A stretch of DNA of 64,000 nt from Scytolyngbya sp. HA4215-MV1 (lineage in GTDB: Bacteria; Cyanobacteriota; Cyanobacteriia; Leptolyngbyales; Leptolyngbyaceae): positions 124,001-188,000 of the forward strand of contig JAHHIA010000005.1 in the NCBI GenBank assembly GCA_019359045.1, read 5' to 3'. Shown here piece by piece: positions 17,519-54,670 of this stretch (positions within the stretch are counted from its first letter, which is position 1; every line of letters begins with the position of its first letter). Both the position numbers and the translations under genes were made by a program. A model generated the notes under the pieces. The model worked only from the letters and a program-made list of their open reading frames with translations. It did not search any database and had not been told where the DNA came from.

Positions 17519-17631
17519 GATAAATATGTCCTCGTCTGATAATTAATCCTTTTCGGACACAGTTTCAAACTTCCGGAAAATGCACCTGATTTTGCTGAAG
17601 TAGATGTTTTTAGTTAGCTAGATGCAGTCAC

Positions 17632-19179
17632 CTAATCTATTCGAAAAATCTGAATTTCTGGTTTATTGTGTGGATTTTTAATCAGTTTGACTTTGCTTAA
17701 ACGATAGCCGGCTTGCTCTAATATCTTGTTTTCACCGGGCATCAGAACGAGCAAACAAGTTTGGTCAAGCTTTAAGTCTTTTGAAATTGGCATGATGCGA
17801 TATTTTCCTAATGAATAACCACCCTGCCCCTGAAATGTGATGCTTGAGTCCAATGGAGACTTTTGATACAGACTGGGATCGTATTGTGTATAGAACAGGA
17901 TAAATGTATGAGTGTGATGAAAGAGATTACTAATTACGACACAGTTTGAATTTTTTTCTATGTAATTAATTGTTTCTTTCATTCCATATCGCCAAACTTT
18001 ATAGGATGCATCTTTCGGATAGTCTATAAAATAGAATTTCCAAAATATGGAAATGTTAAGTGTAGCTAAAAAGACAATGCTCCAAATTATTTGCTTAGAT
18101 GTAAATTTTAGACGCTCGATTATCTGGACAAACCCGTATCCTGAAAGAATGGCAAATAAGGGGGAGCCGACGATCGCCCTCAAGGCATGTCCTGGTTCGG
18201 TCAAAATGGCGGGAATGGGATAAAGGAAGAACCACAACAATAAAGCATTTCGAGGTTTACCACCGTGCTTAAATAGGAAAAATAGACCAACCGGCACGGT
18301 AATCATCTCAATCCAGTACAACTCGCCAATGCCTCTTGGACTATGGCGTAGGTTAGCATCCCCATTTAAAAAGAGAAAATCGGGGCTGAAGTAGGATAGA
18401 TAGTTTTGGAGCAGTAGGATCGGATCTTTGACCAAGCCCACAAATTTTGCCCGAGCCATTCCTTCTGGTGAAATCCAGAATTGCAGCAGAATCAAGAAAA
18501 TTGTCAAAAAAATGACGCTGGCGATCGCAGTTTGCTTTTTAAATCGCCAGAAGTGTCGACCAAATAAAATCAAAACTCCGACTAAGAAAAGAGAAGTGAA
18601 TACGCGAGCAGCGGCGTAGGTATAGAGTGTCAAACCAAATCCCAGGGCACTGAGATAGAGATAGAAAGGTTGCTTGAAGCTTTTGAAGAGAAAAAGTAAG
18701 CCCAAACAAAAGCAAAAGGGAACCAAAATTGCGCCAAAGCCGATACGGCTGAACTGAATGTGCCAGGGGCTGATGGCAAGAAACAGGGATGCAAATAAAC
18801 CAATCCGTTGGTTGAAGAGTTCTTTGGCGAGGTAATAAACAACCCATACTGTCAGCACTCCAATTAAGGCTGATGGCAATCGGGTTGCCAATTCAGTTAA
18901 CCCAAAAAGTTGGATGAATGGGACGAGTAGAAAGATGTGAGGAGATTCTCGATAATCATTAAGCGATCTCACAAACATAGGCAAAAATACGCCAAATCCA
19001 TCTCTACCAGTTTTGAGAATGGAATAGGCATCATAGCCATTAATTGCCTCATCTTGGGTGAAGCCGTTGGGAATACTTGAGAGTAAAAATACCCTCAAAA
19101 ATGTAGCGAGTACAAGAATCAAGACCAAGCTTAGGTTGATTCTCTCTGTCACATGCTTGATCCAAAGATTGATTGGCAC
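17632..19179 (-). CDS. GT39/ArnT-like integral membrane glycosyltransferase
   Basis: 515 aa, GTG start. The first helix is followed by FLLSSIPNGFTQDEAINGY (acidic DE pair). Further marks are RLPSALIGVLTVWVVYYLA, FLAISPWHIQFSRIGFG and LTLYTYAARVFTS, the pattern of PMT_2/ArnT-like proteins. About eleven membrane helices are followed by a soluble tail of roughly 110 residues. The likely reaction is transfer from a polyprenyl-phosphate sugar to an envelope glycan or lipid. Same strand as the neighbouring GT-C genes; spacing of 57 bp from the HTTM gene downstream of it suggests a transcription unit running from 21060 down to about 12231, broken by the 480-bp gap at 15905. Confidence 0.87.
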   Translation of the reverse strand: MPINLWIKHVTERINLSLVLILVLATFLRVFLLSSIPNGFTQDEAINGYDAYSILKTGRDGFGVFLPMFVRSLNDYRESPHIFLLVPFIQLFGLTELATRLPSALIGVLTVWVVYYLAKELFNQRIGLFASLFLAISPWHIQFSRIGFGAILVPFCFCLGLLFLFKSFKQPFYLYLSALGFGLTLYTYAAARVFTSLFLVGVLILFGRHFWRFKKQTAIASVIFLTIFLILLQFWISPEGMARAKFVGLVKDPILLLQNYLSYFSPDFLFLNGDANLRHSPRGIGELYWIEMITVPVGLFFLFKHGGKPRNALLLWFFLYPIPAILTEPGHALRAIVGSPLFAILSGYGFVQIIERLKFTSKQIIWSIVFLATLNISIFWKFYFIDYPKDASYKVWRYGMKETINYIEKNSNCVVISNLFHHTHTFILFYTQYDPSLYQKSPLDSSITFQGQGGYSLGKYRIMPISKDLKLDQTCLLVLMPGENKILEQAGYRLSKVKLIKNPHNKPEIQIFRID

Positions 19180-19236
19180 AACCCAGAGCCTTTTTGTCTA
19201 AATGTTATTGTTTGTAATGCCTATGGTTCTTTGCAA

Positions 19237-21060
19237 TTAATTAGATGAATTAGAGCAAGATTGCTGCCAATTGTTTTGCCGATCTACGGTTTGGGATTGA
19301 CCCTGCGGTACGGTTCGCTCACTCATGAAATAGATTTCAAAACTGACCAGCCGTTGTTTGCTACTGTGACGAGCATTCCAGCTGCGGCAAAGGTAGTTGG
19401 CATAGTTGGGATAAAGTACGCGCTTATTACCCCGGTTCATATTAATAAACAGAGTACGCCATTGCATATTGTGGTAAATAGCATTGCGGGTAGCAACCGT
19501 GGGTTTTTCCCAGGCAATGGGTGCACCATTGCGAAGGATATCGACCTCTGAGCCGTCTGCTAATTTGCCAGGGATAACGAACCAACCATCGTCTTTGGGC
19601 GGTCCTGGTGAAAAAATGCTCCACTTTTGATCGACTCGCAGCACACGACTAATCCAATCGATCGAGTTCAACACTTTGCGGTTGAGTTTGTCGGGCATCA
19701 GGGCTTTGAAGTTCCAGAGCGTGACGTAGGCTAACAGCAGCCAGGTCACGATATTAAACATTCGGGTGGGTCGAACTTCCAGATCCTTAAATTGGAAGGG
19801 TCGAGTGAAGGCACCTGCGGTTCGTCGATGGGTGGCGATCGTCTCATAAAACCGAGTTCCCATTGTCATTACCGGTTCACGTCGCAGTAAAGCGGCAATG
19901 GGGTGCAACAAGGGCGAAATACTACCAACATAGGCAATCCCTTCCCATTTGAAGTGGCGGTTGCCTTGCCAGTCCACTACCACCCAGGAGTTATACGCTT
20001 CCATATCAGCGTAAATGCTGGGATCGTCCTGTGCCATCAGTAGGGGGGTATCGGGTGGCAGTACTAAAAACGTCCGGATTAAGTGAACGACCTTTTTGCA
20101 GAATCCGCAATCAGCATCATAGTAAATCCGCAGTCCATACTGGGGATCGCCATAGACCCGTTTTGCTCGCTTTTCCCAAAAATCACTGGGTAGAAACGCC
20201 AGCCAGCAGGCAATGCTGAGAAAGGGGAAAATGCCTAGATTCAGGGTTAGCCCAAAACCTGCGTGCAGCAGAATGAAGGTCACCACAGTCCAAAATTTGA
20301 AGAAGCTGTTACGCCAGGGAATGAAAATGAACAGCGGACCGACCCATTCCAGCGCCATGGTGAAGTAGGTCGAAATCTTCATCAACCAGGGGAAGTTGAG
20401 CAACAGCTTGCCGATCGAAGTGACGTATTGGTCATAGCTCAGTGCATAGTAGACTGCAGATCCTTCGGTTGTCCAGTTAGGGCTGGTGGATTTGAACCCT
20501 GCCGAAAAAATATAGATAAAGCAAAGCTGGACGGCAAACGCCAGGGTTGCGCCTGAAACTACTCTTTGGGGTAGGCGATCTCGTTGGGTATTCAGCGCCC
20601 GATCTATGGAGTAATGTCCCCCCAACGGCAAAAACATTGCCCAAAACAAAATTGCTCGCAGCACATCATCGGCTGCAAAAATCAATGCTGGGTTGCGGTT
20701 ATGGATGGAAATGACCAGCGCCCAAGTGGCAATCGTGGCAAATCGCGTGCGATAGCCCACCAGCATCAGCAGGACAAAGAATATCCCCGTGCCAAAAATC
20801 AACCCTTGAATCAACGGTTGTCCACTGATTAAATTCAGCGACCAATACCAAGGGTTGAGTATTTTAAAGAGTTCTGTTCGAGGCAACACTCCTTCATCGC
20901 TATAGAGCGCCGAGGCATCCGCAGTCCGCAAACATAAATCTGTGAGGATGACGAGCGCCAGACCGATACGGAACAGCGCCAGCGATCGCAAATCTAACCC
21001 GAATATCTCATCGAGCTTTGCACCAAAGAGGGTTTTTGGTTTTGGCTCACTCGTAACCAT
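19237..21060 (-). CDS. HTTM - DCC1-like thiol-disulfide oxidoreductase fusion
   Basis: 607 aa. Residues about 15-290 form an HTTM domain (LDLRSLALFRIGLALVILTD, four or more membrane helices), related to the membrane part of vitamin K-dependent gamma-carboxylase. Residues about 310-430 are a DCC/DUF393 domain with YYDADCGFCKKVV, the Cys-X2-Cys redox pair on a thioredoxin-like fold. A C-terminal region of about 150 residues with another helix (NIVTWLLLAYVTLW) follows. HTTM plus DCC is a known pairing, though the biochemical role is undefined; quinone-linked thiol oxidation is a reasonable inference. It is 177 bp downstream of the NDH-2-like gene. Confidence 0.88.
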   Translation of the reverse strand: MVTSEPKPKTLFGAKLDEIFGLDLRSLALFRIGLALVILTDLCLRTADASALYSDEGVLPRTELFKILNPWYWSLNLISGQPLIQGLIFGTGIFFVLLMLVGYRTRFATIATWALVISIHNRNPALIFAADDVLRAILFWAMFLPLGGHYSIDRALNTQRDRLPQRVVSGATLAFAVQLCFIYIFSAGFKSTSPNWTTEGSAVYYALSYDQYVTSIGKLLLNFPWLMKISTYFTMALEWVGPLFIFIPWRNSFFKFWTVVTFILLHAGFGLTLNLGIFPFLSIACWLAFLPSDFWEKRAKRVYGDPQYGLRIYYDADCGFCKKVVHLIRTFLVLPPDTPLLMAQDDPSIYADMEAYNSWVVVDWQGNRHFKWEGIAYVGSISPLLHPIAALLRREPVMTMGTRFYETIATHRRTAGAFTRPFQFKDLEVRPTRMFNIVTWLLLAYVTLWNFKALMPDKLNRKVLNSIDWISRVLRVDQKWSIFSPGPPKDDGWFVIPGKLADGSEVDILRNGAPIAWEKPTVATRNAIYHNMQWRTLFINMNRGNKRVLYPNYANYLCRSWNARHSSKQRLVSFEIYFMSERTVPQGQSQTVDRQNNWQQSCSNSSN

Positions 21061-21237
21061 AGGGGATCAAGAATGGGGGTAGGGGATAGGGATCAGGAGA
21101 ATGAGTGATAGAAAGAGATAGGAAGAGGGAGAATTTTTGTCAGTCCTATGAACCGGGTTGCCAACGCACAGAGTGCCGGTTGCCGAAGTTGTGAGTTTTA
21201 AGCGCCAGCATTTCTTCACTGCTTCACCTATTTACTT

Positions 21238-22572
21238 CTAATAAGGCGCGCGACGATCGGCATGTCCGGATGTAAAGCGTGGGCGAGTAGCTAATTTCTT
21301 GCTCGTTTGGCGTAAATGGGGTTGCCATTGTCGGGGAAAGCATTTCAGGATGCCTTGTCCAATCCAGTGCAGCATGACTTGGCAGCGATGGTGCAGAGTT
21401 GGAAGGCGTTGAGCATAAACCCACTGACGAATCACTTGAGCGAGGGCACCCCCCAACGTTATACCAAAGCTGGAGACCACTGACTCTCCTTGTCCCAGGG
21501 TCATCATTTCACCCAGGTGAAGATAGCGAAACTGCAGCAGGGGGCGTTGTTTGATTGCTCGCCACAGGTTTTGCGCTGCGCAGTCTGCTTGTTGATAGGC
21601 TGCTTGAGCAGTTGCTGGCACTTTCGGCTTGCCAGGGTTTTGGATTTCTGCTAAATCGCCGAGAGCAAAGACTTCGGGATAGTTTGTCAGTTGCAGCGTG
21701 GGGAGAGAGAAAAGCTGTCCTTGGGGGTTGTGTTGGCAGGGGAGTTGTTTGACCCAATCCACTATTTGAGTACCAGCCGTCCATAGCACCAAGTCGGTGG
21801 GTAAGGTTTTCACGTCTCCCTGGTGGCTGAGGGTGATCTGATCCGCTTCGATCGCAGTGATGCTGGTATCGAGATGGAGTTGAATGCCCCGTTCTTTTAG
21901 AGCGCGATAGGCGAATTTGCGGCTACCGGGAGTAAAAGTTTTGAGAATTTGGTCGCCGCGTTCGATCAAGCGTACTTCAACCCGATGCTTGAGCCGATCG
22001 GCGATCTTGCAAGCAATTTCAACCCCATTGGGACCGCCGCCCGCGATCGCCACTCGAATAATCGGACGATCGGATGCTTCTAAAAACCGGAGTCGTTCTC
22101 TTAAATGCTCGGCATCTGCTAATGAACGAAAGGTTTGGGCATGAGTGGCGGCACCCGGCACCCAGTTCAGTTGGGGTGAGCTACCCACTGCCAAAACCAG
22201 ATAATCGTAATGGAGAGTTTTGCCACTTTGCAGATGCACCGATCGTCTGTTCAGATCCACATCCTGGACACTATCCTGGCAGAAGTGAACATTCTTGCCA
22301 GTCAGCAATTTTTGATAAGGGGGGGCAATGTGCCAGGGTTGCAGTTCGCCCGTTACGACTTCATAGAGCAACGGAGTAAACAAAAAGTTGTCCCGCTGTT
22401 CCACCAGGGTGATTTCGTAGTGGGGCGATCGTAATTGGGCAAATTTTTGTAAGTACAGCGCTGTATACAGTCCACCAAAACCCCCTCCCAAAATACAAAT
22501 ACGGGTCGGTCGCGTCTGCCCCAACTGGGCAGGTAGGCTCAGGATTTCATCCGGGTCTTTTTTGCAGTACAT
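21238..22572 (-). CDS. NAD(P)H dehydrogenase type 2-like FAD oxidoreductase
   Basis: 444 aa. N-terminal FAD Rossmann motif ICILGGGFGGLYTALYL (residues about 24-40), second nucleotide-binding motif VAIAGGGPNGVEIA near 172, and the FAD-contacting EVFALGDLAEI near 300. Layout and length match cyanobacterial NDH-2 (Ndb) proteins, monotopic flavoenzymes passing electrons from NAD(P)H to quinone without proton pumping. The C-terminus (MLHWIGQGILKCF) is amphipathic, suitable for membrane contact. It starts 14 bp after the SGNH gene stop, so it is probably co-transcribed with the MBOAT-SGNH pair, an unusual neighbour. Confidence 0.88.
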   Translation of the reverse strand: MYCKKDPDEILSLPAQLGQTRPTRICILGGGFGGLYTALYLQKFAQLRSPHYEITLVEQRDNFLFTPLLYEVVTGELQPWHIAPPYQKLLTGKNVHFCQDSVQDVDLNRRSVHLQSGKTLHYDYLVLAVGSSPQLNWVPGAATHAQTFRSLADAEHLRERLRFLEASDRPIIRVAIAGGGPNGVEIACKIADRLKHRVEVRLIERGDQILKTFTPGSRKFAYRALKERGIQLHLDTSITAIEADQITLSHQGDVKTLPTDLVLWTAGTQIVDWVKQLPCQHNPQGQLFSLPTLQLTNYPEVFALGDLAEIQNPGKPKVPATAQAAYQQADCAAQNLWRAIKQRPLLQFRYLHLGEMMTLGQGESVVSSFGITLGGALAQVIRQWVYAQRLPTLHHRCQVMLHWIGQGILKCFPRQWQPHLRQTSKKLATRPRFTSGHADRRAPY

Positions 22573-22586
22573 AAGCGCTGACCACG

Positions 22587-23555
22587 TTAAGGAGTAGGAG
22601 TGGGAGAAGGTTGAGGAATTGGGGGAATAGTCGTTTTGTCCAGGACTTCCTGGAGCTTCTGAGCTAATTCAGCCGATCGAAGTTTTCGACCATTGGGGTT
22701 GAGATGGTAATGCGTATCCGCAAATAGACTGGCGTCAGTTTTGATATTCAAAGATGTTTTGTCATACAGCGTAGGAGCAATTTTTTCCAGGGTTTCGGCA
22801 GTGGTGCGAACGTTTTTCACCGTAGCTTCATCTGTGCTGCCGTAGATCCAGGACAGACCCAGCACCAGAGTTGCACCCTTCGCTTCCACTTCTTGCTTGA
22901 ATTTTTGAATCCGTTGCGCCGCATGAGGAGAGATTGACCCGTCGATCTTGAGTTGCCACCATTTGCCAATTCGAGGGTTGATGACGATGGGATCACCATT
23001 GGCGGTGATGGGATCGGAGTAGTAGCCGGTCAAGCGCCCTTTTTCCACCAGATCCAACGTAGATTTGGTGGCGGCTCTCAAGGTGGGCACACCCAACAGC
23101 AGCAGGTCTTGTGCCAATTGCTTGGCAGGAATGTTGCCCAAGCCTGGCTTGCCGATCGCCATGCCAAACTGCCCGGAACGATCGCCAAAGCCATCCTCAT
23201 CCAGCAGCAGCAAATATTCGGGAATCAATAACACGATATCTCCCGGTCGAATTACAGGAGAAACTGCTGGCAGAATCACATCCAGACCGACCGGACCATC
23301 GGTTGCCATGTTCAGTACGGGCATGCCCAGCGTCTTTTGCATCTGCCCTGCATCCACACTGTAGTGGGCACCCGATCCTCCCACAATCAAAACTCGGTGG
23401 GGCGCTTGCACCTGACTGGCGATCGCCATTTTCTGCTCGTACATGATGCGGAGCCAACTCAGTTCTCCCCCATAGCGAGCATTGTAGAAATAGCCCGCTG
23501 TCCAGGCTAATCCAGCAACTGCAAACCAACTGGCAAATCTTAGAATCTTTCGCAT
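22587..23555 (-). CDS. Membrane-anchored SGNH-like protein, DltD/AlgJ-like role
   Basis: 322 aa with one N-terminal membrane helix (about 5-24), so the body lies outside the cytoplasm. RVLIVGGSGAHYSVDA places a nucleophile-like Ser61 in a GxSxA context. GDIVLLIPEYLL and C-terminal FADTHYHLNPNGRK (Asp280, His282/284) give the remaining SGNH-type positions. The Asp-His spacing is not the textbook DxxH, so activity is not certain. A proline-rich tail (PPIPQPSPTPTP) ends it. Its ATG overlaps the MBOAT stop (TGATG), implying translational coupling. In AlgI/AlgJ, PatA/PatB and DltB/DltD pairs the SGNH partner receives or transfers the acyl group outside the membrane. Confidence 0.85.
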   Translation of the reverse strand: MRKILRFASWFAVAGLAWTAGYFYNARYGGELSWLRIMYEQKMAIASQVQAPHRVLIVGGSGAHYSVDAGQMQKTLGMPVLNMATDGPVGLDVILPAVSPVIRPGDIVLLIPEYLLLLDEDGFGDRSGQFGMAIGKPGLGNIPAKQLAQDLLLLGVPTLRAATKSTLDLVEKGRLTGYYSDPITANGDPIVINPRIGKWWQLKIDGSISPHAAQRIQKFKQEVEAKGATLVLGLSWIYGSTDEATVKNVRTTAETLEKIAPTLYDKTSLNIKTDASLFADTHYHLNPNGRKLRSAELAQKLQEVLDKTTIPPIPQPSPTPTP

Positions 23556-25012
23556 CAGAAACTAAAGTAAATGAATGGGGAAGGTGCGGTTGCACCAAAC
23601 AGAACGGTTGAGGCAAACAAAATTCGAGCCACCCAGGGAGAAGTCAACAAGTCATACTCTCCTTCTCGCTTTAACCAAATTGCCAAGTGTTCCAGGAGCA
23701 ATACGCCAATTGCCAGCGCCAGCGTTACACTCAATAAAATTCCTTCATTAAAACTAAAGCTACCCCAGGCTTCAACCAGCTTGCCAGGTGAATAAGCCAA
23801 CGGAGAGACCAGTGTAAGCAGCTTGGTCAACAGGCGACGTGAATCCGTCTCCATGAAGAACACGCAACCCAGAATGACTGAAAGAAAGGTCAATGCCCAG
23901 GAGATGAATTGAGGCATGAACAATCGCTCACCCACAAACCGATAGAAAGGGCGTCCTGCGTATCGCAGCACCAGCAATAAAGCCCCGTGATACGCACCCC
24001 ACAGGATAAAATTCCAGGCGGCTCCATGCCAGAAGCCCGACAGAGTAAAAGTGATAAACAGATAAAAGGCTGCCCACTGACTTCTTTTACCCATTAGCGG
24101 GATAAAAACATAGTCCCGGAACCAGGTACTCAGGGTGACGTGCCACCGTCGCCAGAACTCATTGATGCTTTGGGAGGTATAAGGAGCGAGAAAATTCAAC
24201 GTTAGCTTGACCCCGAAAAACTTGGCTAATCCCAATGCAACGAAACTATACCCAGCAAAGTCAAAGTAAATTCGCAAGGTAAACAGAAAGGCATGAAACC
24301 AGACCAGCCAGGCATTAGTTGCGACTTTGACATCAATAAAGGGAGTCAGGTTGTCTGCCAGAACAAACTTCATGAACAAGCCGAGTGACAACCATCGAAA
24401 GCCTTCATTAAAGTTATCCAAGGTGAATTTGAAGCGGAAAGATTCCATCTGAGAAAACAGCGTGGATTTTCGCTCAATCGGTCCTGCTACCACATGAGGA
24501 AAGAAGGAAACAAAATTCAAATAATCGAGGGCTTTCACCGGGCGCTTCTTACGACTCGTGTAAGAGTCCACCACAAATGACACCATTTCAAAGGTGTAGA
24601 AAGACAAACCGGGGGGGATGGCGCTATGGATTTCGGCATGAGCTTGCCAGTCTGCCGCAAGGCTGGGAAACGCTAATCCCACCACGCCTTCGACGAAAAA
24701 ATTGACATATTTGAAATACGCCAAAATGGCAACATCAATAATGATGACGACGGTGGCGATCGCTTTAGCTTGCCATCCCTGACGCCGCAACATCAGTGTC
24801 ACCATCAAATAATTGAAAATAATTTCAAAGATAAAAATAATAAAGCTGGTGGGAGACGCATTCAGAAACAAAGTCAACGACATGATGGCTAGACCGATGC
24901 CGTCGAAAGGGTCTCGCCACAGGTTCAGAGACTTCCCCACATAGCGCAGGGTAAAAAAGGGAATGCTAAACAGTAATAAAACCCACCAGAAAGAAAAATC
25001 TGAAAAGTTCAA
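23555..25012 (-). CDS. MBOAT-family O-acyltransferase (AlgI/DltB-like)
   Basis: About 485 aa. I chose the TTG at 25012 because GGGAGGG lies about eight bases upstream and the product then begins as MNFSDFSFWW, a usual start in the family; the open frame extends to a TTG at 25033. Many membrane helices. MBOAT marks: HVVAGPIERKSTLFSQM, NEFWRRWHVTLSTWFRDYVF and FWHGAAWNFILWGAYHG with the conserved His of the tunnel. These enzymes move acyl groups (acetyl, D-alanyl, longer acyl) across the membrane to polysaccharide or teichoic acid acceptors. The adjacent ACP and fatty acyl-AMP ligase suggest an acyl-ACP donor here. A hairpin at 25241 separates it from the ACP gene. Confidence 0.93.
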   Translation of the reverse strand: MNFSDFSFWWVLLLFSIPFFTLRYVGKSLNLWRDPFDGIGLAIMSLTLFLNASPTSFIIFIFEIIFNYLMVTLMLRRQGWQAKAIATVVIIIDVAILAYFKYVNFFVEGVVGLAFPSLAADWQAHAEIHSAIPPGLSFYTFEMVSFVVDSYTSRKKRPVKALDYLNFVSFFPHVVAGPIERKSTLFSQMESFRFKFTLDNFNEGFRWLSLGLFMKFVLADNLTPFIDVKVATNAWLVWFHAFLFTLRIYFDFAGYSFVALGLAKFFGVKLTLNFLAPYTSQSINEFWRRWHVTLSTWFRDYVFIPLMGKRSQWAAFYLFITFTLSGFWHGAAWNFILWGAYHGALLLVLRYAGRPFYRFVGERLFMPQFISWALTFLSVILGCVFFMETDSRRLLTKLLTLVSPLAYSPGKLVEAWGSFSFNEGILLSVTLALAIGVLLLEHLAIWLKREGEYDLLTSPWVARILFASTVLFGATAPSPFIYFSF

Positions 25013-25240
25013 GGAATGCGCCCTCCCAGGCAATCGGGGTATTCAGGACTTTTGGCGTGACCAAAACGCAGTGATGAACCGAGATTGGACTTGGAGACGA
25101 TCGACTTTGGATGTGTGAACTGAAAGAGGGTTCAGCCTGAGATACCCGGACTAAAACAGCTTCCAGTCTTGTGTCCAAGATCAGTTGTCTAAACTCTATC
25201 TAAGATCAATCAATCAATAATTGCATCCTATTCCGTAAAA

Positions 25241-25278
25241 ACGCGATGAATCACGTTTCTCACGAAGATTCATCGCGT
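25241..25278 (-). terminator. 12-bp hairpin after the ACP gene
   Basis: ACGCGATGAATC (25241-25252) and GATTCATCGCGT (25267-25278) are perfect inverted repeats. Read on the minus strand the stem is followed by a T5 tract, 66 bp past the ACP stop, as in an intrinsic terminator. The flanking GTAGAGACGCGAT text resembles a palindromic repeat common in cyanobacterial genomes, so it may be a dispersed element used as a terminator. Confidence 0.6.
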
Positions 25279-25343
25279 CTCTACAGAAGATTTACTTGTC
25301 TCACAAAATGATGGACAATTGCCATCCATCATTCTGTTTAGGA

Positions 25344-25637
25344 TCAAGCTGCTTCTGCAGCAGGCGATACGCCGATTTCTTCGACCAAGTAGCTGGCAGC
25401 TTTTGCGATCGTGGGGTAGTCCCACAACAAGGTGGAGGGCAGGTCTTCGCCCAACCAATCTTCCAAATCGCCTACGATCGTGACTGAGTCGATCGAGTCC
25501 AGACCATAGCGGGTGAGAGGTTCGCTCACTTTGATATTGGCAGCCGGAATCGACAATTGGGTGGCAATTTGGTTCACCATCCAGGTTTGGATTGCTTCGA
25601 TCGCGAAGATTTCGGTGGTTGCAGTTGCTTGAGTCAT
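25344..25637 (-). CDS. Acyl carrier protein
   Basis: 97 aa starting MTQATATTE at 25637; an upstream open frame overlaps the dehydrogenase and is not needed. RYGLDSIDSVTIVGDLE carries the phosphopantetheine-accepting Ser48 in the DS(I/L) context, and the four-helix ACP pattern is clear (LSIPAANIKVSEPL, LLWDYPTIAKAASYL). The context is that of stand-alone carrier proteins paired with fatty acyl-AMP ligases and PKS/NRPS starter modules rather than housekeeping AcpP. It begins four bases after the dehydrogenase stop and so is translationally coupled. It should need the Sfp-type transferase at 29673 for activation. Confidence 0.94.
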   Translation of the reverse strand: MTQATATTEIFAIEAIQTWMVNQIATQLSIPAANIKVSEPLTRYGLDSIDSVTIVGDLEDWLGEDLPSTLLWDYPTIAKAASYLVEEIGVSPAAEAA

Positions 25638-25641
25638 GGTT

Positions 25642-27450
25642 TTACTTAGCCTGTAATTGGAGGGTTTGAGAGGGTTCAGAAGCAGTTTCCGGCTGTGCTG
25701 GAGCAAGCTGGAAGGGGACAATAGAGAACATCCGGTCTTCGCTATAGAGCCGAATGAGTTCCTGGGCGATCGCCGCATCATCCAAACGAGGCGGCAAATC
25801 TTTTTCCCGACGGAAGGTCAACATCAGCCGACGCAGAGACAGCGCCAGCCATTCCCCTTTGGCGAAAAAGTCGCCCAAGTGGTGACGGTTGTACAGCCAC
25901 ATATGCACGCAAGCGGCTGCCGTGTGGAGCGTGCAATACTGTTTCGCCATTTCAAACGATTCAGGCGACTGGTCATGTCCGTACTCAAAGCTGGATGCGG
26001 TCACGTGGGCATCCAGGCTATCGAGTTCTGCCTGAATCATTTCGGTGAAAGTGGTGACCTGATGCAGAACTTCTGGAGTCAAGCTCTTGTCTGCTTTCAG
26101 GCTGGCGAGTTGGGTCAATGCCAAAGGCAATCCCTGGAGAACATCATCGGCACCTCGGCTGACCAGTTCTAATTTGCGACCATCAAACGGAGGCAACGGT
26201 TTGTCTAGACCAAAGCTGGTTTCCAGACGGGCATTTAGCACTTCTGGGTTACGTTCCTTGTTGCGGGCGCGATATTTTGCCAGTTGTCGCATTTGCAGCA
26301 GCAGCGCATGCAAGTTCACCACTGTGCTGCCATCGAACATGCTGATAATGGCAACATCGCGGAGTGTCTTCTGGAAAATACCGAATTCAAACTCTTCCCG
26401 CATGTAGAAGCGAGCGCCCAGAACCGCCGAAACGTCTGTCACCATGGCTTCTAGTTTGACGGTGACAAAATATTTCACCACCGCAGACCAGACGGAGAAC
26501 TGTTCCGGTGCCACACTGAAGCCTCTAGCAGCCCCGATCGTCGCGCAATCGCCAATCAGCACATCCAGGAAGGCATCGGTCAGCACCCGGCGGGGTTGGG
26601 GCATGTCGAAAACCGTTTTGCCGTAAAGCTTGCGCTTCATCGCAAATTTGAGCGTTGTGCGGAGTGCGGTATCGGCTGCGCCTTGGGAAAAGGCAGCACA
26701 GAGGGCACGAGTAATCTGAAAGCCCTTCAGCGCCAGTTCCAGTCCAGCTCCCTCGGCACCCAGGCGGGCATCTTCGGCAACAAACGCATCCTCAAAGCGA
26801 ATGCCACTCATATCAGAGCCACGAATGCCATGGGTGAGAATCTTGGGCAAGTGGGTGTAGGTTTTCTCATCCAGCTTGCTCTTTTCCACCATGAACAGCG
26901 ACAGACTCCGCGCACCACCTGCGTCATCGGTTCTTGCCAACACAAAGGTGACACCAGAGATAGTTGCCCGGTTGATGGGCCACTTCTCGCCATTCAGCAA
27001 GTAGCCACCAGGCACCTGGGTTGCGGTGACATCGCCACCCAACAGGTCACTCCCATGCGCTTTTTCGGAATAGGAAAGACACATGGCACCGTGTTGGTCT
27101 TTCATGAACGAAGCCAGACGACGCTTTTGTTCGTCGGTGCCCGCCATCCAGACCAGAAAAGACCAGAACATGGTGGTGAAGGCGATGCCTGCGGTCAAGT
27201 CGCGGCGAGACAACACGCGCACGAAGGCAACGAACTCTTCAAAGTTGGTGAATTCGCCACCGCATTCGGCGGGAATGTAGTGATGGTGAAGATTCCAGTT
27301 ATAGAGCCAGTTGACGATGTCATGGGGAAATTCTTCCTTTTCATCCAGGTCAACCACCTGTTTGAACGACATCATGCTGTCGGGATTGAGGGGATCGCCC
27401 AGATCTCGTTCGAGTGCTTCAGCGACCCAGTAGTGTTTGAGAGGATGCAT
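25642..27450 (-). CDS. Acyl-CoA dehydrogenase-family protein, probably acyl-ACP dehydrogenase
   Basis: 602 aa, longer than the usual ~380-aa ACAD because of a C-terminal helical extension. N-terminal helical part (FVRVLSRRDLTAGIAFTTMF), FAD-contacting middle domain (CLSYSEKAHGSDLLGG, LLNGEKWPINRATISG) and C-terminal four-helix part (MKRKLYGKTVFDMPQPRRVL, MFDGSTVVNLH) are recognisable. Family reaction: alpha,beta-desaturation of an acyl thioester by FAD. Placed between a fatty acyl-AMP ligase (33 bp) and an ACP (4 bp), it most likely acts on acyl-ACP, giving a 2-enoyl-ACP, as proposed for starter units in lipopeptide pathways. No electron-transfer flavoprotein is nearby. Confidence 0.92.
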   Translation of the reverse strand: MHPLKHYWVAEALERDLGDPLNPDSMMSFKQVVDLDEKEEFPHDIVNWLYNWNLHHHYIPAECGGEFTNFEEFVAFVRVLSRRDLTAGIAFTTMFWSFLVWMAGTDEQKRRLASFMKDQHGAMCLSYSEKAHGSDLLGGDVTATQVPGGYLLNGEKWPINRATISGVTFVLARTDDAGGARSLSLFMVEKSKLDEKTYTHLPKILTHGIRGSDMSGIRFEDAFVAEDARLGAEGAGLELALKGFQITRALCAAFSQGAADTALRTTLKFAMKRKLYGKTVFDMPQPRRVLTDAFLDVLIGDCATIGAARGFSVAPEQFSVWSAVVKYFVTVKLEAMVTDVSAVLGARFYMREEFEFGIFQKTLRDVAIISMFDGSTVVNLHALLLQMRQLAKYRARNKERNPEVLNARLETSFGLDKPLPPFDGRKLELVSRGADDVLQGLPLALTQLASLKADKSLTPEVLHQVTTFTEMIQAELDSLDAHVTASSFEYGHDQSPESFEMAKQYCTLHTAAACVHMWLYNRHHLGDFFAKGEWLALSLRRLMLTFRREKDLPPRLDDAAIAQELIRLYSEDRMFSIVPFQLAPAQPETASEPSQTLQLQAK

Positions 27451-27483
27451 AGCAATCCAGTACCAGTGGCTAGATGTGGGTGA

Positions 27484-29319
27484 TTAGTGAGCAGTCTGGA
27501 TTTTTTCCAGCAGCGAATCGACTTCCGATTGCAGATTCTTGTAGTTGGATTTGATTTTGGGATTTTCGCTCCAATCTGCCAGCACACCCAATTCGTCTGC
27601 GAGGAAGCTGGCTTTACAGGCACGACGCTGAATTTTGCCACTGGAGGTCTTGAGAATGTTGCCGGGTTTCACCAGTACCACTGCATAGACTTGGAGTTCG
27701 TGGATTTCAGCGATCGCCTGTCTAATGGAGGTAATCACTTCCTCAGTATCAAATTCCTGTTGTTGCCGTTCCACCTCTTGCACTACGACCAGCTTTTCTT
27801 CGTTATCCACATCAATGGAGAAGGCGGCACCATAGTCAGGACGCAGGGCCGGGTGGATTTGCTGCACGGTCCACTCAATGTCTTGAGGATAGTGGTTAGT
27901 GCCTCGAATGATGATCAGGTCTTTGATCCGTCCGGTGACGAACAATTCACCTTGATGCATAAAGCCTAGGTCACCCGTACGTAAGAAGGGACCTTCGCCT
28001 TCAGCGGTGTGTGCCCGAAAGGTTTCTTCCGACTCTTCGGGACGATTCCAGTAACCGCCAGCCACACCAGGATCAGAAACCCAAATTTCGCCGATTTCAT
28101 CAGCAGCACATTGTGTTTTCGTGTCTGGGTTGACGATCGCCACTTTGGTTTCGCAGACTAGTTGACCACAACCTGCCATGATGCGAGCACTGTCGCGATC
28201 GGGAGCCGATTCCAATACCTTGTTCTTTTCTAAGGCGCTGGTATCAAATGCTCGCAAAACTGGCGTTTGTAGGCGAGGGCTGGTGGTAACCAACAGAGTT
28301 GCTTCTGCCAAGCCGTAGGCAGGTGCAAACGCTTCCCAACGGAACCCTGCCGGCGCAAACTTTTTAGCAAACTCCTTCATTACCTTGGGGTTGATCGGCT
28401 CAGCTGCATTGCCTGCGCCGACCCAACGGCTCAAATCCAGATCGGCAATTTGGGCTTCCTTGATGCGGCGATTACACTGGTCGTAGGCAAAGTTGGGCGC
28501 TTGGCTGTGAGTGCCGCCATAGCGCGACATTGCCTGAAGCCAGTGAATGGGCTTTTTGATAAAGGCAAAGGGTGCCATCACATAGCAAGGGTGCCCGTTG
28601 TACAAGGGTTGAGTCAGCCCTTCCACCAAGCCATAGTCGTGGAAATAGGGCATCCAGGTGATGGTGACGCTGTCTTCCGTGTAGCCACAAGCCCGTTGCA
28701 GGTAAGAAGAGTGATGCAGAATGTCCTGGTGGCTAATCATCACCCCTTTTGGAGTGGAGGTGGAGCCAGAGGTGTATTGCAGATATGCCAGGGTATCGCC
28801 ATGTGCTGCGGGATCTTGCCATTGGTCTGCCAAGCCCAGATCGACTTCTTCCGTGGCGATCCAGGTCATGTCGGCAAATTCGGGGAAGTCCAGTCCGGCA
28901 CTTTCCAGAGTCTCTAGAATGCGCCCGGTGGTGAGGGCAAAGGAAGCTTTAGCATCCTGAACGATCGCCCGCAGGCGGGGTAAAGAGCGCTTGAGGCGAC
29001 TGGCATCCGGAGGCGGCACCGGAATTGCAATGACTCCGCCATAAAGACATCCCAGAAACGCGGCGATTACTTCCAATCCCTGGGGATAGAGCAACAATGC
29101 TCTTTCACCTTTGGCATTGTGCTGTTGCAATTTTGCTCCGATCGCCCGTACTTGCTGATCCAATTCAGCGTAGGTGAGCGAGGAACCTTCGGATTTACCA
29201 TCGACCAAAAAGGTGTAAGCGTGTTTATTTGGCTGCTGAGTGGCGCGCCAACGTAAGAGTTCGACCAGAGTGGAAGTCCCGATAGGGGGAGCAGTGGGAG
29301 TGTCAAGGCATTGAGTCAT
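27484..29319 (-). CDS. Fatty acyl-AMP ligase (FAAL)
   Basis: 611 aa from the ATG at 29319 (MTQCLDTPT); a TTG five codons earlier opens the frame. Adenylate-forming enzyme: P-loop YTSGSTSTPKGVMISH, VTITWMPYFHDYGLVEGL and PAYGLAEATLLVTTSP. The C-terminal subdomain has FVTGRIKDLIIIRGTNHYPQDIE and ends in ILKTSSGKIQRRACK. The HDYGL and NHYPQDIE patterns are those of FAALs, which load fatty acids as adenylates onto an ACP instead of CoA. It heads the FAAL-ACAD-ACP unit and is divergent from the PPTase. Confidence 0.95.
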   Translation of the reverse strand: MTQCLDTPTAPPIGTSTLVELLRWRATQQPNKHAYTFLVDGKSEGSSLTYAELDQQVRAIGAKLQQHNAKGERALLLYPQGLEVIAAFLGCLYGGVIAIPVPPPDASRLKRSLPRLRAIVQDAKASFALTTGRILETLESAGLDFPEFADMTWIATEEVDLGLADQWQDPAAHGDTLAYLQYTSGSTSTPKGVMISHQDILHHSSYLQRACGYTEDSVTITWMPYFHDYGLVEGLTQPLYNGHPCYVMAPFAFIKKPIHWLQAMSRYGGTHSQAPNFAYDQCNRRIKEAQIADLDLSRWVGAGNAAEPINPKVMKEFAKKFAPAGFRWEAFAPAYGLAEATLLVTTSPRLQTPVLRAFDTSALEKNKVLESAPDRDSARIMAGCGQLVCETKVAIVNPDTKTQCAADEIGEIWVSDPGVAGGYWNRPEESEETFRAHTAEGEGPFLRTGDLGFMHQGELFVTGRIKDLIIIRGTNHYPQDIEWTVQQIHPALRPDYGAAFSIDVDNEEKLVVVQEVERQQQEFDTEEVITSIRQAIAEIHELQVYAVVLVKPGNILKTSSGKIQRRACKASFLADELGVLADWSENPKIKSNYKNLQSEVDSLLEKIQTAH

Positions 29320-29672
29320 TTGCACAACTCTCAAGGAGTAAGGTTAAACGGATTGGCTCGATGCGGAAAGTTTTGAACAAACTTGAGTGCCGTTACCAGG
29401 GAATATTTACATACCCAATCGAGTCCAGAGCAGGATTCATCAGCGGTTTCATCAAAAAAACAAATTCCGGTCTGATTAATGAAGCAATCGCCATCCTTTC
29501 AGGAATTGCTCCCGGTACTCTTGGGGATGAGTCAAGGCACTTTTTAAGCATTGATAAATCTCTGCATTAATGAAGTTTTAGGATTCATCAGAATTCACCC
29601 ATTTGAGTGGGAAAATTGTTGCTTAGATCATGTCTTTCAAGCAAGTCTCAAAAGATACCCGTGTGCTCAGAA
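29320..29672. other. Divergent promoter region between FAAL and PPTase
   Basis: 353 bp with no supported gene; a 69-codon + strand frame inside it has no family marks. Both transcription units (FAAL leftward, PPTase rightward) must start here. I see no clear operator. A weak direct similarity of CATTTGAGTGGG-like text was judged insignificant. Confidence 0.5.
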
Positions 29673-30404
29673 ATGGAGTCTATCTTTGTGCCGGAAGAAG
29701 AAATCTGGCAACTGCCTGAACCACCCTTGAGTCTTTCACCACAAGAGGTTCATGTTTGGCGCGTGTTTTTAGATCAAGCTCCAGAGCGACTGGCATCCTG
29801 GTTTGACTTGCTGTCGCATGACGAACAAGTACGGGCAAATCGATTTCATTTTGAGTCCGATCGCGCCCGGTTTATTGTCGGTCGGGGGCGGTTGCGAGAA
29901 ATTTTGAGTTACTACTTGGAAGAAGCACCGGAGCAGGTGCAGTTTTGCTATGGTGAGCGCGGTAAACCCTCACTGGCAACTCCTTCTGCTTCTCCTTTTC
30001 GGTTCAATCTGGCGCATTCTCAGGGGTTGGCGTTGTGTGCGGTGATGCGCGACTATGAAGTGGGGATCGATTTAGAGCAAATTCGTCCCATGCCAAAAGC
30101 GAAAAAACTGGCAATACGCTACTTTTCAGCGGCAGAAGTCACGAGGCTACAAAGCCTTTCTCCGCTGGCTCAACCGGGTGCTTTTTTTCAGTACTGGACT
30201 TGCAAAGAGGCGTATGTGAAGGCGATCGGCACGGGGTTGGCGCATTCTTTACAGCAAATTGAAGTTCATTGGGCGCAAGGCAAACCAGACCTGGTGCCGA
30301 ACTTAAACCAGTGGGCACTGCATTGCTTCGTGCCTGCACCAGGCTTTGTCGCGGCACTGGTGGTGACAGGGAAGATACAGCGGTTGCAATATTTTGCTGA
30401 ATGA
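29673..30404 (+). CDS. 4'-phosphopantetheinyl transferase, Sfp/HetI type
   Basis: 243 aa from the ATG MESIFVPEEE; an upstream in-frame ATG at 29607 gives an unconserved extension. Family marks: FHFESDRARFIVGRGRLR, NLAHSQGLALCAV, VGIDLEQIRP (Mg-binding Asp and Glu) and FFQYWTCKEAYVKAIGTGL (WxxKEA). It transfers 4'-phosphopantetheine from CoA to the conserved serine of carrier proteins. Position beside the FAAL-ACAD-ACP set suggests it activates that ACP, although cyanobacteria usually have one broad Sfp-type enzyme, so it may also serve all other carriers. Confidence 0.93.
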   Translation: MESIFVPEEEIWQLPEPPLSLSPQEVHVWRVFLDQAPERLASWFDLLSHDEQVRANRFHFESDRARFIVGRGRLREILSYYLEEAPEQVQFCYGERGKPSLATPSASPFRFNLAHSQGLALCAVMRDYEVGIDLEQIRPMPKAKKLAIRYFSAAEVTRLQSLSPLAQPGAFFQYWTCKEAYVKAIGTGLAHSLQQIEVHWAQGKPDLVPNLNQWALHCFVPAPGFVAALVVTGKIQRLQYFAE

Positions 30405-30419
30405 GTTGGGGGATCTCTG

Positions 30420-30457
30420 GACTCTGGACTGATCGATCAAGACTTCAGTCCAGGGTC
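30420..30457. terminator. Hairpin between convergent genes
   Basis: GACTCTGGACTGA (30420-30432) and TCAGTCCAGGGTC (30445-30457) pair with one G.T-type mismatch and a 12-base loop, between the PPTase stop and the stop of the convergent glycosyltransferase, which lies within the right arm. There is no T run, so a bidirectional factor-dependent or stabilising hairpin is as likely as an intrinsic terminator. Confidence 0.4.
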
Positions 30458-31518
30458 TCCTGTTTGCCGTCCAATTCTGCACTAAACAACTGTTTCGCGA
30501 TCGTTTTGGCAGTGCGTCCCTCGCGCCAGAGCCACTGATTGTCTTTGCCATGACTACGGATGTGGGGAATCACTTCGCTAATGCGGGACTCCAGCTCATC
30601 GAAGGTTTGAAAGGTTTTGCCCACTTCGACGGGAGAGAGCAATTGATGCTGAATTACGGGGTAATCGGAAGCGAGAATATAACAACCACAGCTGACCGCA
30701 TCATTTACCACACCACTGGCACGATAGTAGTAGCGATCGCCCTTATAAAATGCCACCAAAATATCTAGTTTTTTTAGCAAGTTGAAGTATTCACTTTCTT
30801 GGGTGGTGTCATATAGCTGAACTTCTAGTTGTTCAATTTTTTCAGTTTTTTGATAGAAGGGTAGACCGATAATGAGTTCGCAACCAGAATCGGCTTGTTT
30901 GGTATAAGCTGCTAATCGTTTTGCCAGTTCAAAAATGGGTTTGTCTTCCCGAATCATGCCGACAATGCCGATTTTAATGGGTTCGTTGTCAGGTTTGTGG
31001 CTACCTAGCGGCAGCGTTGGCTCTACATCACTTCTGATCGGGTGGGGAATGATAATTTTTGATTTTGAATGAATTCTAACTTTTTCAGGTAAAATTTTGT
31101 CGTCAATTTCAAATAAAACAATTTTGGATTTAAATAATTTCAAAAAAAGCTTTAGGTAAAGTAATCCAATATATTTGATAATATTTTTTTCAGCAAATTG
31201 TTGTTCCCCATGCAAACAAATCAAGATTTCTTTGCCAGTTAATGCCAATAATGGCAGTGTTATAAATACATGTTGTAAGTAGATTTCAAATAAAAAAATA
31301 CAATCGACATCTTTCAGTTGAAAAGCTCTAAGGGCTGTGGCGATATGGCGATATTCTCGCCGAACATTCAGAGCGATCGAGTAATTAGGAATTGACTGGG
31401 TGAGTTTTTTGAAGAATTCTGGTAGTGGAGTTTCGATCGATAAAAACCCAATTTTGCGGTTGGGAACATATTGCTCGATCGAAAGCAATTCTTTAAGACC
31501 TGGATGCATTAATTCCAT
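30445..31518 (-). CDS. Glycosyltransferase, GT-B fold (GT1/GT4-like)
   Basis: 357 aa, ATG with AAGGATGG upstream. N-terminal half: LKDVDCIFLFEIYLQHV, EILICLHGEQ. Linker IKIGIVGMIREDKPIFELAKRL is the usual start of the C-terminal Rossmann half of GT4-like proteins, followed by DILVAFYKGDRYYYRASGVVNDAVSCGCYILASD, where the ASG/EA-type loop would bind the nucleotide sugar. No membrane helix. Donor and acceptor are unknown. It is isolated: convergent with the PPTase and divergent from fabH. Confidence 0.78.
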   Translation of the reverse strand: MELMHPGLKELLSIEQYVPNRKIGFLSIETPLPEFFKKLTQSIPNYSIALNVRREYRHIATALRAFQLKDVDCIFLFEIYLQHVFITLPLLALTGKEILICLHGEQQFAEKNIIKYIGLLYLKLFLKLFKSKIVLFEIDDKILPEKVRIHSKSKIIIPHPIRSDVEPTLPLGSHKPDNEPIKIGIVGMIREDKPIFELAKRLAAYTKQADSGCELIIGLPFYQKTEKIEQLEVQLYDTTQESEYFNLLKKLDILVAFYKGDRYYYRASGVVNDAVSCGCYILASDYPVIQHQLLSPVEVGKTFQTFDELESRISEVIPHIRSHGKDNQWLWREGRTAKTIAKQLFSAELDGKQETLD

Positions 31519-31758
31519 GTTGCCATTACCATCCTTGATAAAACGCTAAACGATTGGACATGGGAACACCCTGGTACGAAAAATTCGCTAACCTGTTCTA
31601 CAGATTCTAAGCGCTGCCATATAAAAACTCTGTAAACAGTTTAGAGTTAAACTCGAAAAGCTGATGAAGCCGGGGGGCGCACGATTGACGTGCTGGAAAG
31701 CAATGTTTGCAGAATGATTTAGGCGATCGTCAATCCTTACAAATCGCGGGTGAAGAAG

Positions 31759-32760
31759 ATGGTGCAACAGAGTGGAACGGGGGTTGCCCTGACAGGCTGC
31801 GGTTCAGCCATTCCCGCTCAGGTCCTCAGCAATCACGACTTGAGCCAAGTGGTAGACACTTCAGATGAGTGGATTGCTGACCGAACGGGAATTCGACAGC
31901 GACGACTGGCAGATCCAACCACTTCTCTCAGCCAACTGGCTGTGACCGCAGCTCAGTCTGCGATCACTATGGCAGGGATTCAGCCGATCGACATTGACCT
32001 GATCATTTTGGCAACCTCTAGCCCCGATGATTTGTTTGGCACGGCTGCAAAAGTGCAGGCGGAGTTGGGTGCTACCCGTGCTGCTGCCTTTGATCTAACG
32101 GCAGCCTGTTCAGGGTTTGTGTTTGGGCTGGTGAATGCGGCGCAATTTATTCGCACAGGTGCTTACGAAACCGTGCTGCTGATCGGGGCGGACATGCTGT
32201 CTCGCTGGGTTGATTGGGACGATCGTCGCACCTGTGTATTGTTTGGGGATGGGGCTGGTGCCGTGGTGTTGCAGGCAAATGAACCCGATCGGCTGCTGGG
32301 GTTTGAACTGCGCAGTGATGGCAGCTTGAACCGAAGTCTGACGTTGTCAGCCCAACCGCAGCCTAAAGTTCTGACAGCGGACGTGATAGCGGCGCAAGGC
32401 AGCTATCAACCCATCGTCATGGATGGACGAGAAGTGTATCGGTTTGCGGTGCAGCGAGTGCCCGAAGTGATTGAAAAAGCCTTACATCGGGCTGGGTACA
32501 GCATTGGACAGGTGGATTGGTTGTTGCTGCACCAGGCAAATCAACGGATTTTGGATGCGATCGCTCAACGGCTCAAAATTCCCACTGAGAAAGTGATTAG
32601 TAACCTGGCAAATTACGGCAATACTTCTGCCGCATCGATTCCCCTGGCGCTGGATGAAGCGGTGCGGCAGGGGAAAATCCGACCCGGAGATACGATCGCT
32701 GCCTCCGGGTTTGGTGCAGGATTATCTTGGGGGGCAACCCTTTTTCAATGGGGACGGTGA
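31759..32760 (+). CDS. fabH: Beta-ketoacyl-ACP synthase III
   Basis: 333 aa from ATG (a GTG three codons earlier is possible). Condenses acetyl-CoA with malonyl-ACP to start fatty acid synthesis. Catalytic triad visible: Cys in DLTAACSGFVFGL, His in LLLHQANQRI and Asn in NYGNTSAASIPL. TSDEWIADRTGIRQRR is the conserved N-terminal signature. In many cyanobacteria fabH is followed directly by fabD and plsC; here those lie at 59110-60698, 26 kb away. Its last bases overlap the stop of a convergent small gene. Confidence 0.96.
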   Translation: MVQQSGTGVALTGCGSAIPAQVLSNHDLSQVVDTSDEWIADRTGIRQRRLADPTTSLSQLAVTAAQSAITMAGIQPIDIDLIILATSSPDDLFGTAAKVQAELGATRAAAFDLTAACSGFVFGLVNAAQFIRTGAYETVLLIGADMLSRWVDWDDRRTCVLFGDGAGAVVLQANEPDRLLGFELRSDGSLNRSLTLSAQPQPKVLTADVIAAQGSYQPIVMDGREVYRFAVQRVPEVIEKALHRAGYSIGQVDWLLLHQANQRILDAIAQRLKIPTEKVISNLANYGNTSAASIPLALDEAVRQGKIRPGDTIAASGFGAGLSWGATLFQWGR

Positions 32761-54573: not shown

Positions 54574-54670
54574 CGAATGCACATCCAATGGTCATGGTGA
54601 GTAGCGAAGCGAAGAATCGCTGCTCGCCGCCCCATTCTCGTTATCGAAACTTCATTACAAATTATTGAAA

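Follow-up and report, generated by a model that had tools for sequence, protein, structure and literature searches.

A co-inherited cyanobacterial gene set proposed to pass fatty acids from a carrier protein to a target outside the cytoplasm

Do enzymes that would load and oxidise a fatty acid on a carrier protein form one system with the membrane acyltransferase pair encoded beside them, and what would such a system do? The question is raised by a stretch of 64,000 nucleotides (nt) from the cyanobacterium Scytolyngbya sp. HA4215-MV1 (contig JAHHIA010000005.1, positions 124,001 to 188,000), the whole of which is called the window below. On its minus strand, between 19237 and 29334, seven genes are transcribed in the order fatty acyl-AMP ligase (FAAL), acyl-CoA dehydrogenase-type flavoenzyme (ACAD), acyl carrier protein (ACP), membrane-bound O-acyltransferase (MBOAT), SGNH-fold protein, a flavoprotein resembling type II NADH dehydrogenases (NDH-2) and a membrane protein with a DCC1-like domain (DCC protein). 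We regard the linkage of these seven genes as one set as near certain. That the set is a carrier-fed fatty-acylation machine for a target outside the cytoplasm, in which FAAL and ACP would load the chain, ACAD would oxidise it and the MBOAT-SGNH pair would transfer it, is in our view somewhat probable. Gene content, fold, key residues and co-inheritance are observed; the catalytic steps, the hand-over from ACP to MBOAT and the acceptor are proposed from what the protein families do. The features of the locus are as follows.

27484–29334, minus strand: FAAL, 616 amino acids (aa); Pfam AMP-binding 209.8 bits; FAAL structures are its best structure matches
25642–27450, minus strand: ACAD, 602 aa; Pfam Acyl-CoA_dh N, M and C domains
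25344–25637, minus strand: ACP, 97 aa; PP-binding 52.9 bits; begins 4 nt past the ACAD stop
25235–25284, minus strand: hairpin and T run, terminator- or attenuator-like, from inverted copies and RNA folding
23555–25012, minus strand: MBOAT acyltransferase, 485 aa from a TTG at 25012; Pfam MBOAT 92.5 bits
23558–23575, minus strand: C-terminal FIYFSF of the MBOAT, an FxYxxF acyl-shuttle motif, from alignment and motif scan
22587–23555, minus strand: SGNH-fold protein, 322 aa, from predicted structure, fold matches and alignment
21238–22572, minus strand: NDH-2-like FAD/NAD(P) oxidoreductase; Pyr_redox_2 162.8 bits
19237–21060, minus strand: DCC1-like-domain membrane protein, 607 aa; DCC1-like 25.6 bits against a cut-off of 27.8
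29607–30404, plus strand: Sfp/HetI-type phosphopantetheinyl transferase (PPTase); ACPS 65.7 bits; HetI 243.8 bits against a cut-off of 370

An initial annotation had named six genes here (FAAL, ACAD, ACP, MBOAT, SGNH-like protein and PPTase), and all six are present, by Pfam or NCBIfam matches and, for the SGNH protein, by structure. The span it gave to the system, 22587–30404, is too short, since the NDH-2-like and DCC genes are co-inherited with the others and also belong. From FAAL to DCC the successive intergenic gaps measure 33, 4, 331, −1, 14 and 177 nt, and the proposed coupling of MBOAT and SGNH protein agrees with the SGNH start, which overlaps the MBOAT stop by 1 base. The open reading frame (ORF) listed for ACP, starting at 25781, would overlap ACAD. 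For the MBOAT the frame is open from 25033 (492 aa), its best start being the TTG at 25012, preceded by GGGAGG. Within the 331-nt gap between ACP and MBOAT, the arms of the hairpin (25267–25284 and 25235–25252) are alike at 16 of 18 bases, with the T run after them; the nearest further copy in the window, at 54601, has three mismatches. We take the hairpin to be reminiscent of dispersed cyanobacterial hairpin repeats. The same gap holds different sequences in the 13 other loci examined, and a scan of promoters and terminators gave no excess above shuffled sequence.

The distribution of the set was surveyed in 386 cyanobacterial genomes, the window's own being G000, with search thresholds of E 1e-60 for ACAD and E 1e-95 for NDH-2. 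ACAD matched in 18 genomes, 17 of them at an identity of at least 58%; MBOAT matched in 21, with 17 at 62% or above and four at 36–38%. The SGNH protein was also matched in 21 genomes, namely 17 at no less than 47% identity, G383 in broken pieces and three weakly. For the DCC protein there were 26 matched genomes, 17 at 48% or more, and the remaining matches were G383 (broken), G143 (38%), G213 (partial) and six genomes of family f38. The close orthologues of these four proteins occupy the identical 17 genomes, which span 11 genera and 5 families. All 17 carriers have a FAAL orthologue at 61% identity or higher (48% in G227; this search was limited to the 18 ACAD genomes), and an ACP adjoins ACAD in every one of them (the window and loci L032–L047). 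NDH-2 matched in 128 genomes, and two matches occur in 17 of 17 carriers versus 6 of the 111 other matched genomes. Both presence and absence of the set are seen inside the genera g8, g34 and g45; read as presence and absence only, without a tree, this argues against mere shared ancestry as the cause of the co-occurrence. The overlap of the ACAD and MBOAT genomes has a chance of about 1e-28, a figure that takes no account of relatedness and on which no conclusion here rests.

The neighbourhood search across cyanobacteria proposed with the initial annotation was run, and adjacency in a single genome only is ruled out: the seven genes are contiguous and in the same order in the window and in eight other distinct loci (L035 is the same as L030 and is counted once). 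L026, from A. azotica, has six of the seven genes. In other carriers the cluster is split, as listed here.

L027–L030, contiguous seven-gene loci: Anabaena sp. UHCC 0204, A. lutea, A. catenula and Sphaerospermopsis aphanizomenoides
L032, L033, L034 and L036, contiguous seven-gene loci: genomes G305, G189, G229 and G072
G129, split: FAAL-ACAD-ACP-MBOAT-SGNH and NDH2-DCC
G109, split: FAAL-ACAD-ACP-MBOAT and SGNH-NDH2, with DCC elsewhere
G103 and G141, split: ACAD-ACP-MBOAT-NDH2 and SGNH-DCC, with FAAL elsewhere
Genus g29 (seven genomes), split: ACAD-ACP and MBOAT-SGNH-NDH2, with FAAL and DCC each elsewhere (six of the seven MBOAT loci inspected, the seventh from match coordinates; several assemblies fragmented)

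The split clusters are still complete for all genes. When linked, FAAL always has ACAD as its neighbour, and the pairings of MBOAT, SGNH, NDH-2 and DCC vary. One genome, G383 (L076:5558–15619), holds pieces of FAAL, ACAD, MBOAT, SGNH, NDH-2 and DCC in the standard order with every gene interrupted; portions of FAAL and ACAD are missing besides, and ACP was not detected at E 1e-4. Decay of the whole cluster is the pattern that a single function leads one to expect. Because the same order recurs in the other loci and the phyletic profiles are identical, the gene set is more than a chance arrangement. The view that FAAL-ACAD-ACP and MBOAT-SGNH are one system is thus upheld, since their adjacency recurs in other genomes and their co-inheritance outlasts lost adjacency. 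The PPTase lies outside the conserved set: it is seen in only three other compared loci (L027–L029), 2.1–2.6 kb past the DCC gene, with some flanks ending sooner, and it is therefore not a core member as initially supposed. From its family, it could be the activator of the ACP.

For the set as a whole, a route from carrier to envelope appears likely by analogy with known families. FAAL would convert a free fatty acid to acyl-AMP and charge holo-ACP with the chain, the role that DltA has in the Dlt system; ACAD would then oxidise the chain on the ACP, in the simplest case yielding its 2-enoyl form. The electrons from ACAD would go to an acceptor other than electron-transfer flavoprotein (ETF), the best candidate being the co-inherited NDH-2-like flavoprotein. 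The acyl-ACP would then dock at the cytoplasmic face of the MBOAT, and the chain would travel through the MBOAT tunnel to the Tyr of the C-terminal FIYF(E/S)F. At the outer membrane face, the SGNH protein would take the chain on its Ser and pass it to an envelope acceptor. The DCC protein would act as a constant partner of the set.

The assignment of the FAAL agrees with its best solved structures, 7r7e (E 1.6e-167) and 3kxw (E 6.9e-128); FAAL structures match at E 1e-68 to 1e-167, versus E 1e-20 for the first acyl-CoA ligase, a 4-coumarate-CoA ligase. With NCBIfam, the FAAL models give 338–460 bits, below their own cut-offs, and the DltA model 98 bits against a cut-off of 476. This FAAL is the sole full-length match in the window's genome. 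In the ACP, the Ser for phosphopantetheine attachment lies within a conserved YGLxSI motif and is invariant in 12 aligned sequences; no DltC model of NCBIfam matched the protein.

The MBOAT keeps His298 and His336 (492-aa numbering), which occur in all 19 sequences aligned and correspond to the histidines of the RWH and FWHG motifs of DltB. DltB structures are among its structure matches. Its score with the DltB model TIGR04091 is 177.9 bits against a cut-off of 375, and five other cyanobacterial MBOATs score 140–176 bits; membership of the DltB family was therefore rejected, the score being far under the cut-off and the model failing to separate this MBOAT from other cyanobacterial MBOATs. 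The C-terminal motif is FIYFSF in the window and FIYFEF in 19 of the 19 orthologues listed. No separate DltX-like ORF was found, as among 192 ORFs of at least 20 aa in 18900–30600 only the MBOAT ends in FxYxxF. Excerpts of PMC12148441 describe a relay in which the carrier DltC supplies D-Ala to DltB, the Tyr of the FxYxxF motif in DltX receives it next and the Ser of DltD takes it last; other MBOATs, by the same account, bear an FxYxxF-type motif on their own C-terminus and pass the acyl-Tyr to an SGNH protein. Judged from the alignments, the shuttle here is of the PatA type yet a carrier is co-inherited, a mixture absent from the literature that we found. A plasmid collection held MBOAT relatives in 131 records, none of them covering 80% of the query.

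The SGNH protein had no Pfam or NCBIfam match, nor did four orthologues show any Pfam family at E up to 5; its SGNH-like identity is nevertheless borne out by the predicted structure. The model, built from 17 aligned orthologues, has a predicted local distance difference test score (pLDDT) of 79.6 and a predicted template modelling score of 0.81. Foldseek gave three matches at E 0.001 or below, two of one rhamnogalacturonan acetylesterase plus YxiM. In a second fold search the best 50 rows had Z-scores of 11.4–13.4 over 157–192 residues, and three of the first four were designed scaffolds. Campylobacter PatB appears in this list (Z 11.5 over 170 residues, root-mean-square deviation 4.2); DltD is not among the best 50, which excludes nothing. 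All 17 sequences keep S61, within GSGxH, and D280, H282 and H284, within ADTHYH or ADTHHH. Based on the model, the protein is proposed to be the final acyltransferase, in the role of DltD or PatB.

ETF is the usual electron acceptor of ACADs. A search of 13 of the 17 carrier genomes found it in none, against 10 positives among 14 control genomes. Because no ETF was found in the searched carriers and a second NDH-2 is co-inherited with ACAD, this second NDH-2-like flavoprotein is a candidate for the electron acceptor of ACAD; it keeps both dinucleotide-binding motifs in the aligned sequences. The C2 desaturation on the carrier proposed in the initial annotation we infer only by analogy with the ACAD family. 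The DCC protein has five hydrophobic segments in a crude scan, and its match to a DCC1-like thiol-disulfide oxidoreductase domain is just under the cut-off. A resemblance to vitamin K-dependent carboxylase-like proteins (HTTM) gained no support, as there was no Pfam family match and no PDB relative, and the AlphaFold model of the DCC protein is poor (pLDDT 53.8). In G213 (L071:7183–10566), NDH-2-like and DCC genes are adjacent, with a PPTase-like gene divergent beside them and the DCC frame apparently interrupted; the searches of the 386 genomes gave no ACAD, MBOAT or SGNH match there. Since the NDH-2-DCC pair occurs in G213 without these matches, it may have existed earlier as a redox unit and been recruited later, or it may be a remnant. 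In family f38, G321 (L078:8388–12262) has two tandem DCC-type membrane proteins, 33–34% identical to that of the window, and four other genomes of the family have three or more DCC matches each.

Several points weigh against the carrier-to-envelope route, and some of them would suit another explanation. No conserved gene in the set names the acceptor. At L026 the NDH-2 copy was not seen within the 21.8 kb covered, sequencing errors may account for some of the breaks in G383, and because the hairpin in the ACP–MBOAT gap is terminator-like, the FAAL-ACAD-ACP and MBOAT halves of the window may be transcribed separately. Asp373 of ACAD, invariant in 13 aligned sequences, aligns with the catalytic Glu (YEGT) of medium-chain acyl-CoA dehydrogenase, so that a weaker or different base is possible. 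The common form of SGNH block V is DxxH, and here it reads DTHYH. As for the membrane anchor initially assigned to the SGNH protein, a predicted helix at residues 2–27 is fit for one, but the N-terminal segment stays under the threshold of a crude hydropathy scan, and the anchor is thus a presumed one. FxYxxF also occurs in six other listed MBOATs outside the system (FIYFQF or FLYFQF), which suggests that it marks a kind of MBOAT, not this particular system. DltC docks on DltB via helix HC, with Met302, Val305, Ile306 and Met309 (excerpt of PMC11035591; the corresponding surface is described in an excerpt of PMC9338922), and this helix is not conserved in the MBOAT, where nine DltB residues are unmatched in one alignment. 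In addition, PatA auto-acetylates the Tyr of its FxYxxF from acetyl-CoA, and PatB uses the acetyl-Tyr (excerpts of PMC12148441). With its PatA-type fused motif and its lack of a conserved docking helix, the MBOAT could therefore take part in a pathway of two acyl steps, in which FAAL, ACAD and ACP make a modified fatty acid for a lipid or other acceptor and MBOAT-SGNH add a separate, CoA-derived short acyl group (acetyl, PatA-like) at the membrane. We consider this unlikely; the conserved set offers only the MBOAT as an evident means of unloading the ACP. At a cytoplasmic loop the operon MBOATs have PLMG, versus PLGGNR or PLGGSR in AlgI-like cyanobacterial MBOATs, which is compatible with another donor and proves nothing; together, the HC region and the loop suggest a special donor site, and neither indicates its binding partner. 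The missing acceptor gene would also fit the making and export of a 2-enoyl fatty acid, free or in small-molecule form, which might for instance serve as a signal; the SGNH protein would then be a periplasmic esterase that releases the acid, and no envelope acceptor would be acylated. Esterases and thioesterase I/TesA are indeed among the fold matches. We hold this improbable, for the MBOAT-SGNH gene overlap suits a relay, and excerpts of PMC12148441 describe transferases as the SGNH partners of FxYxxF MBOATs.

The remaining explanations concern the two ends of the cluster. FAAL-ACAD-ACP might feed a nonribosomal peptide synthetase (NRPS) or polyketide synthase (PKS) elsewhere in the genome, and the link to MBOAT-SGNH would then be accidental. 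FAAL, ACP and ACADs of the rotihibin cluster are proposed to supply an NRPS with a desaturated acyl chain, in the manner of ramoplanin (excerpts of PMC8552735), and in an Acinetobacter record FAAL-ACAD-ACP precede a 964-aa ORF with an adenylation domain. The literature on acinetin 505, as far as listed (ten entries), proved unrelated. Since the three genes are found elsewhere with NRPSs, the module is portable. ACAD is no more than 38% identical to its relatives in the plasmid collection among the matches listed (30 of 33 records). Moreover, condensation domains occur in 14 of the 17 carriers (15 of the 18 genomes searched). However, G000, G310 and G109 keep the full set with no condensation domain found. 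In the window's genome there are three ketoacyl-synthase (KS) genes, of 393–432 aa, and none of PKS size, and inside the cluster neither a condensation domain nor a PKS-type KS was seen. As no condensation domain was found in G000 and the KS genes found there number three, all short, the carrier would have no megasynthase to feed; an NRPS or PKS outlet is rejected for this genome, where FAAL-ACP feeding one would have contradicted the initial annotation, and the FAAL-ACAD-ACP module does not need any megasynthase. The megasynthases of these genomes have other FAAL-type ligases at their disposal: 27 further matches are listed over the 18 genomes, at most 53% identical, 15 in ORFs of at least 1300 aa and 12 in ORFs of 580–731 aa. 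The phyletic profiles, which are identical, and the decay of the whole cluster in G383 also speak against an accidental link, which is largely refuted and very improbable. At the other end, the NDH-2-like and DCC proteins could themselves supply the acceptor, a quinone reduced to a quinol that the acyltransferase then esterifies to an acyl-quinol lipid. NDH-2 relatives reduce naphthoquinones. The co-inheritance of the NDH-2 homologue and DCC with the acylation genes fits this idea, as do the split clusters, in which NDH-2 and DCC pair mutually or with MBOAT or SGNH, and the occurrence of the pair at L071 without acylation genes. NDH-2 homologues are widespread in cyanobacteria, though, and acylation of a quinol needs no periplasmic SGNH protein, so that we give this explanation hardly any weight.

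We return to the carrier-to-envelope route. Among the papers that literature searches brought up and that were seen, the rotihibin paper included, none describes FAAL-ACAD-ACP combined with MBOAT-SGNH. What has been established so far on envelope acylation by MBOAT-SGNH pairs concerns acetyl and D-alanyl groups, and excerpts of a 2025 paper (PMC12148441) state that MBOAT-SGNH systems other than Dlt work without a carrier protein, the carrier being published as Dlt-only. The present set may therefore represent a third architecture of trans-membrane acylation: a PatA-type, fused-shuttle MBOAT fed by a dedicated ACP with a fatty chain selected by FAAL and oxidised by ACAD, its own NDH-2/DCC redox pair draining or using the electrons, and, as its product, an envelope molecule new to cyanobacteria that is esterified with a long, probably unsaturated chain. 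We offer this fuller picture tentatively, holding it slightly more doubtful than probable. If true, the carrier-fed relay would be a more general design that extends to fatty acids, and a fatty-acylated envelope component would be predicted in several cyanobacteria, including the named Anabaena and Sphaerospermopsis strains. It would also be a case of an acyl-ACP dehydrogenase operating without ETF.

The surroundings of the cluster were inspected as well. The initial annotation had suggested as acceptor a glycan made by the adjacent glycosyltransferases, and this part did not hold up: the neighbours at 16385–19179 and 30445–31518 are not conserved in other loci, and because of this nothing ties a neighbour-made glycan to the system. 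Just downstream of the DCC gene, 16385–19179 contains two polytopic glycosyltransferase-like genes, of which 17632–19179 matches PMT_2 at 49 bits; 30445–31518 has no Pfam match. Near the cluster, at 31750–32760, there is a gene like FabH-type ketoacyl-ACP synthase III (named by eye), with no match in the other loci compared. G227, the 18th genome with an ACAD, was kept apart, its ACAD being 47%, its FAALs 47–48% and its MBOAT 37% identical, and the SGNH and DCC searches gave no match in it. Its locus (L048:3901–17522) encodes two FAALs, a fatty-acid hydroxylase, an ACAD, an ACP, a class I/II aminotransferase, a short-chain dehydrogenase/reductase, a CarS-like protein and a divergent MBOAT, which adjoins a 320-aa protein without Pfam match. 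We presume a resemblance to a carrier-fed sphingoid-type lipid pathway, and the locus might be one in a cyanobacterium.

How does the set compare with known systems? It shares with Dlt (DltA, DltB, DltC, DltD and DltX; D-alanylation of teichoic acid) an adenylating ligase, a dedicated gene for a phosphopantetheine carrier, here of the ACP type, an MBOAT and an SGNH protein, arranged as a carrier-fed trans-membrane relay. Unlike Dlt, it has FAAL in place of DltA and adds ACAD, NDH-2-like and DCC genes. The Dlt-like machine of the initial annotation stands in its proposed carrier-fed design of ligase, ACP, MBOAT and SGNH protein, and falls as membership of Dlt, given that the MBOAT lies outside the DltB family, the FxYxxF is fused and a DltX-like ORF is absent from the region scanned. 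To our knowledge, cyanobacteria are not known for teichoic acids. The PatA-PatB pair of peptidoglycan O-acetylation and the AlgI-type pairs likewise place a fused C-terminal FxYxxF MBOAT beside an SGNH protein, but they are said in excerpts of PMC12148441 to use acyl-CoA without a carrier, whereas FAAL and ACP are co-inherited here. Lipopeptide starter modules of the rotihibin and ramoplanin type and that of Acinetobacter have the same enzymes, the Acinetobacter stretch in the same gene order; in contrast to them, the present set lacks a downstream NRPS and has a membrane acyltransferase pair as its outlet. Taken together, these comparisons suggest a set that works as Dlt does, but on fatty acids and through a PatA-type shuttle; the tests applied place it outside Dlt, and it fits the MBOAT-SGNH kind.

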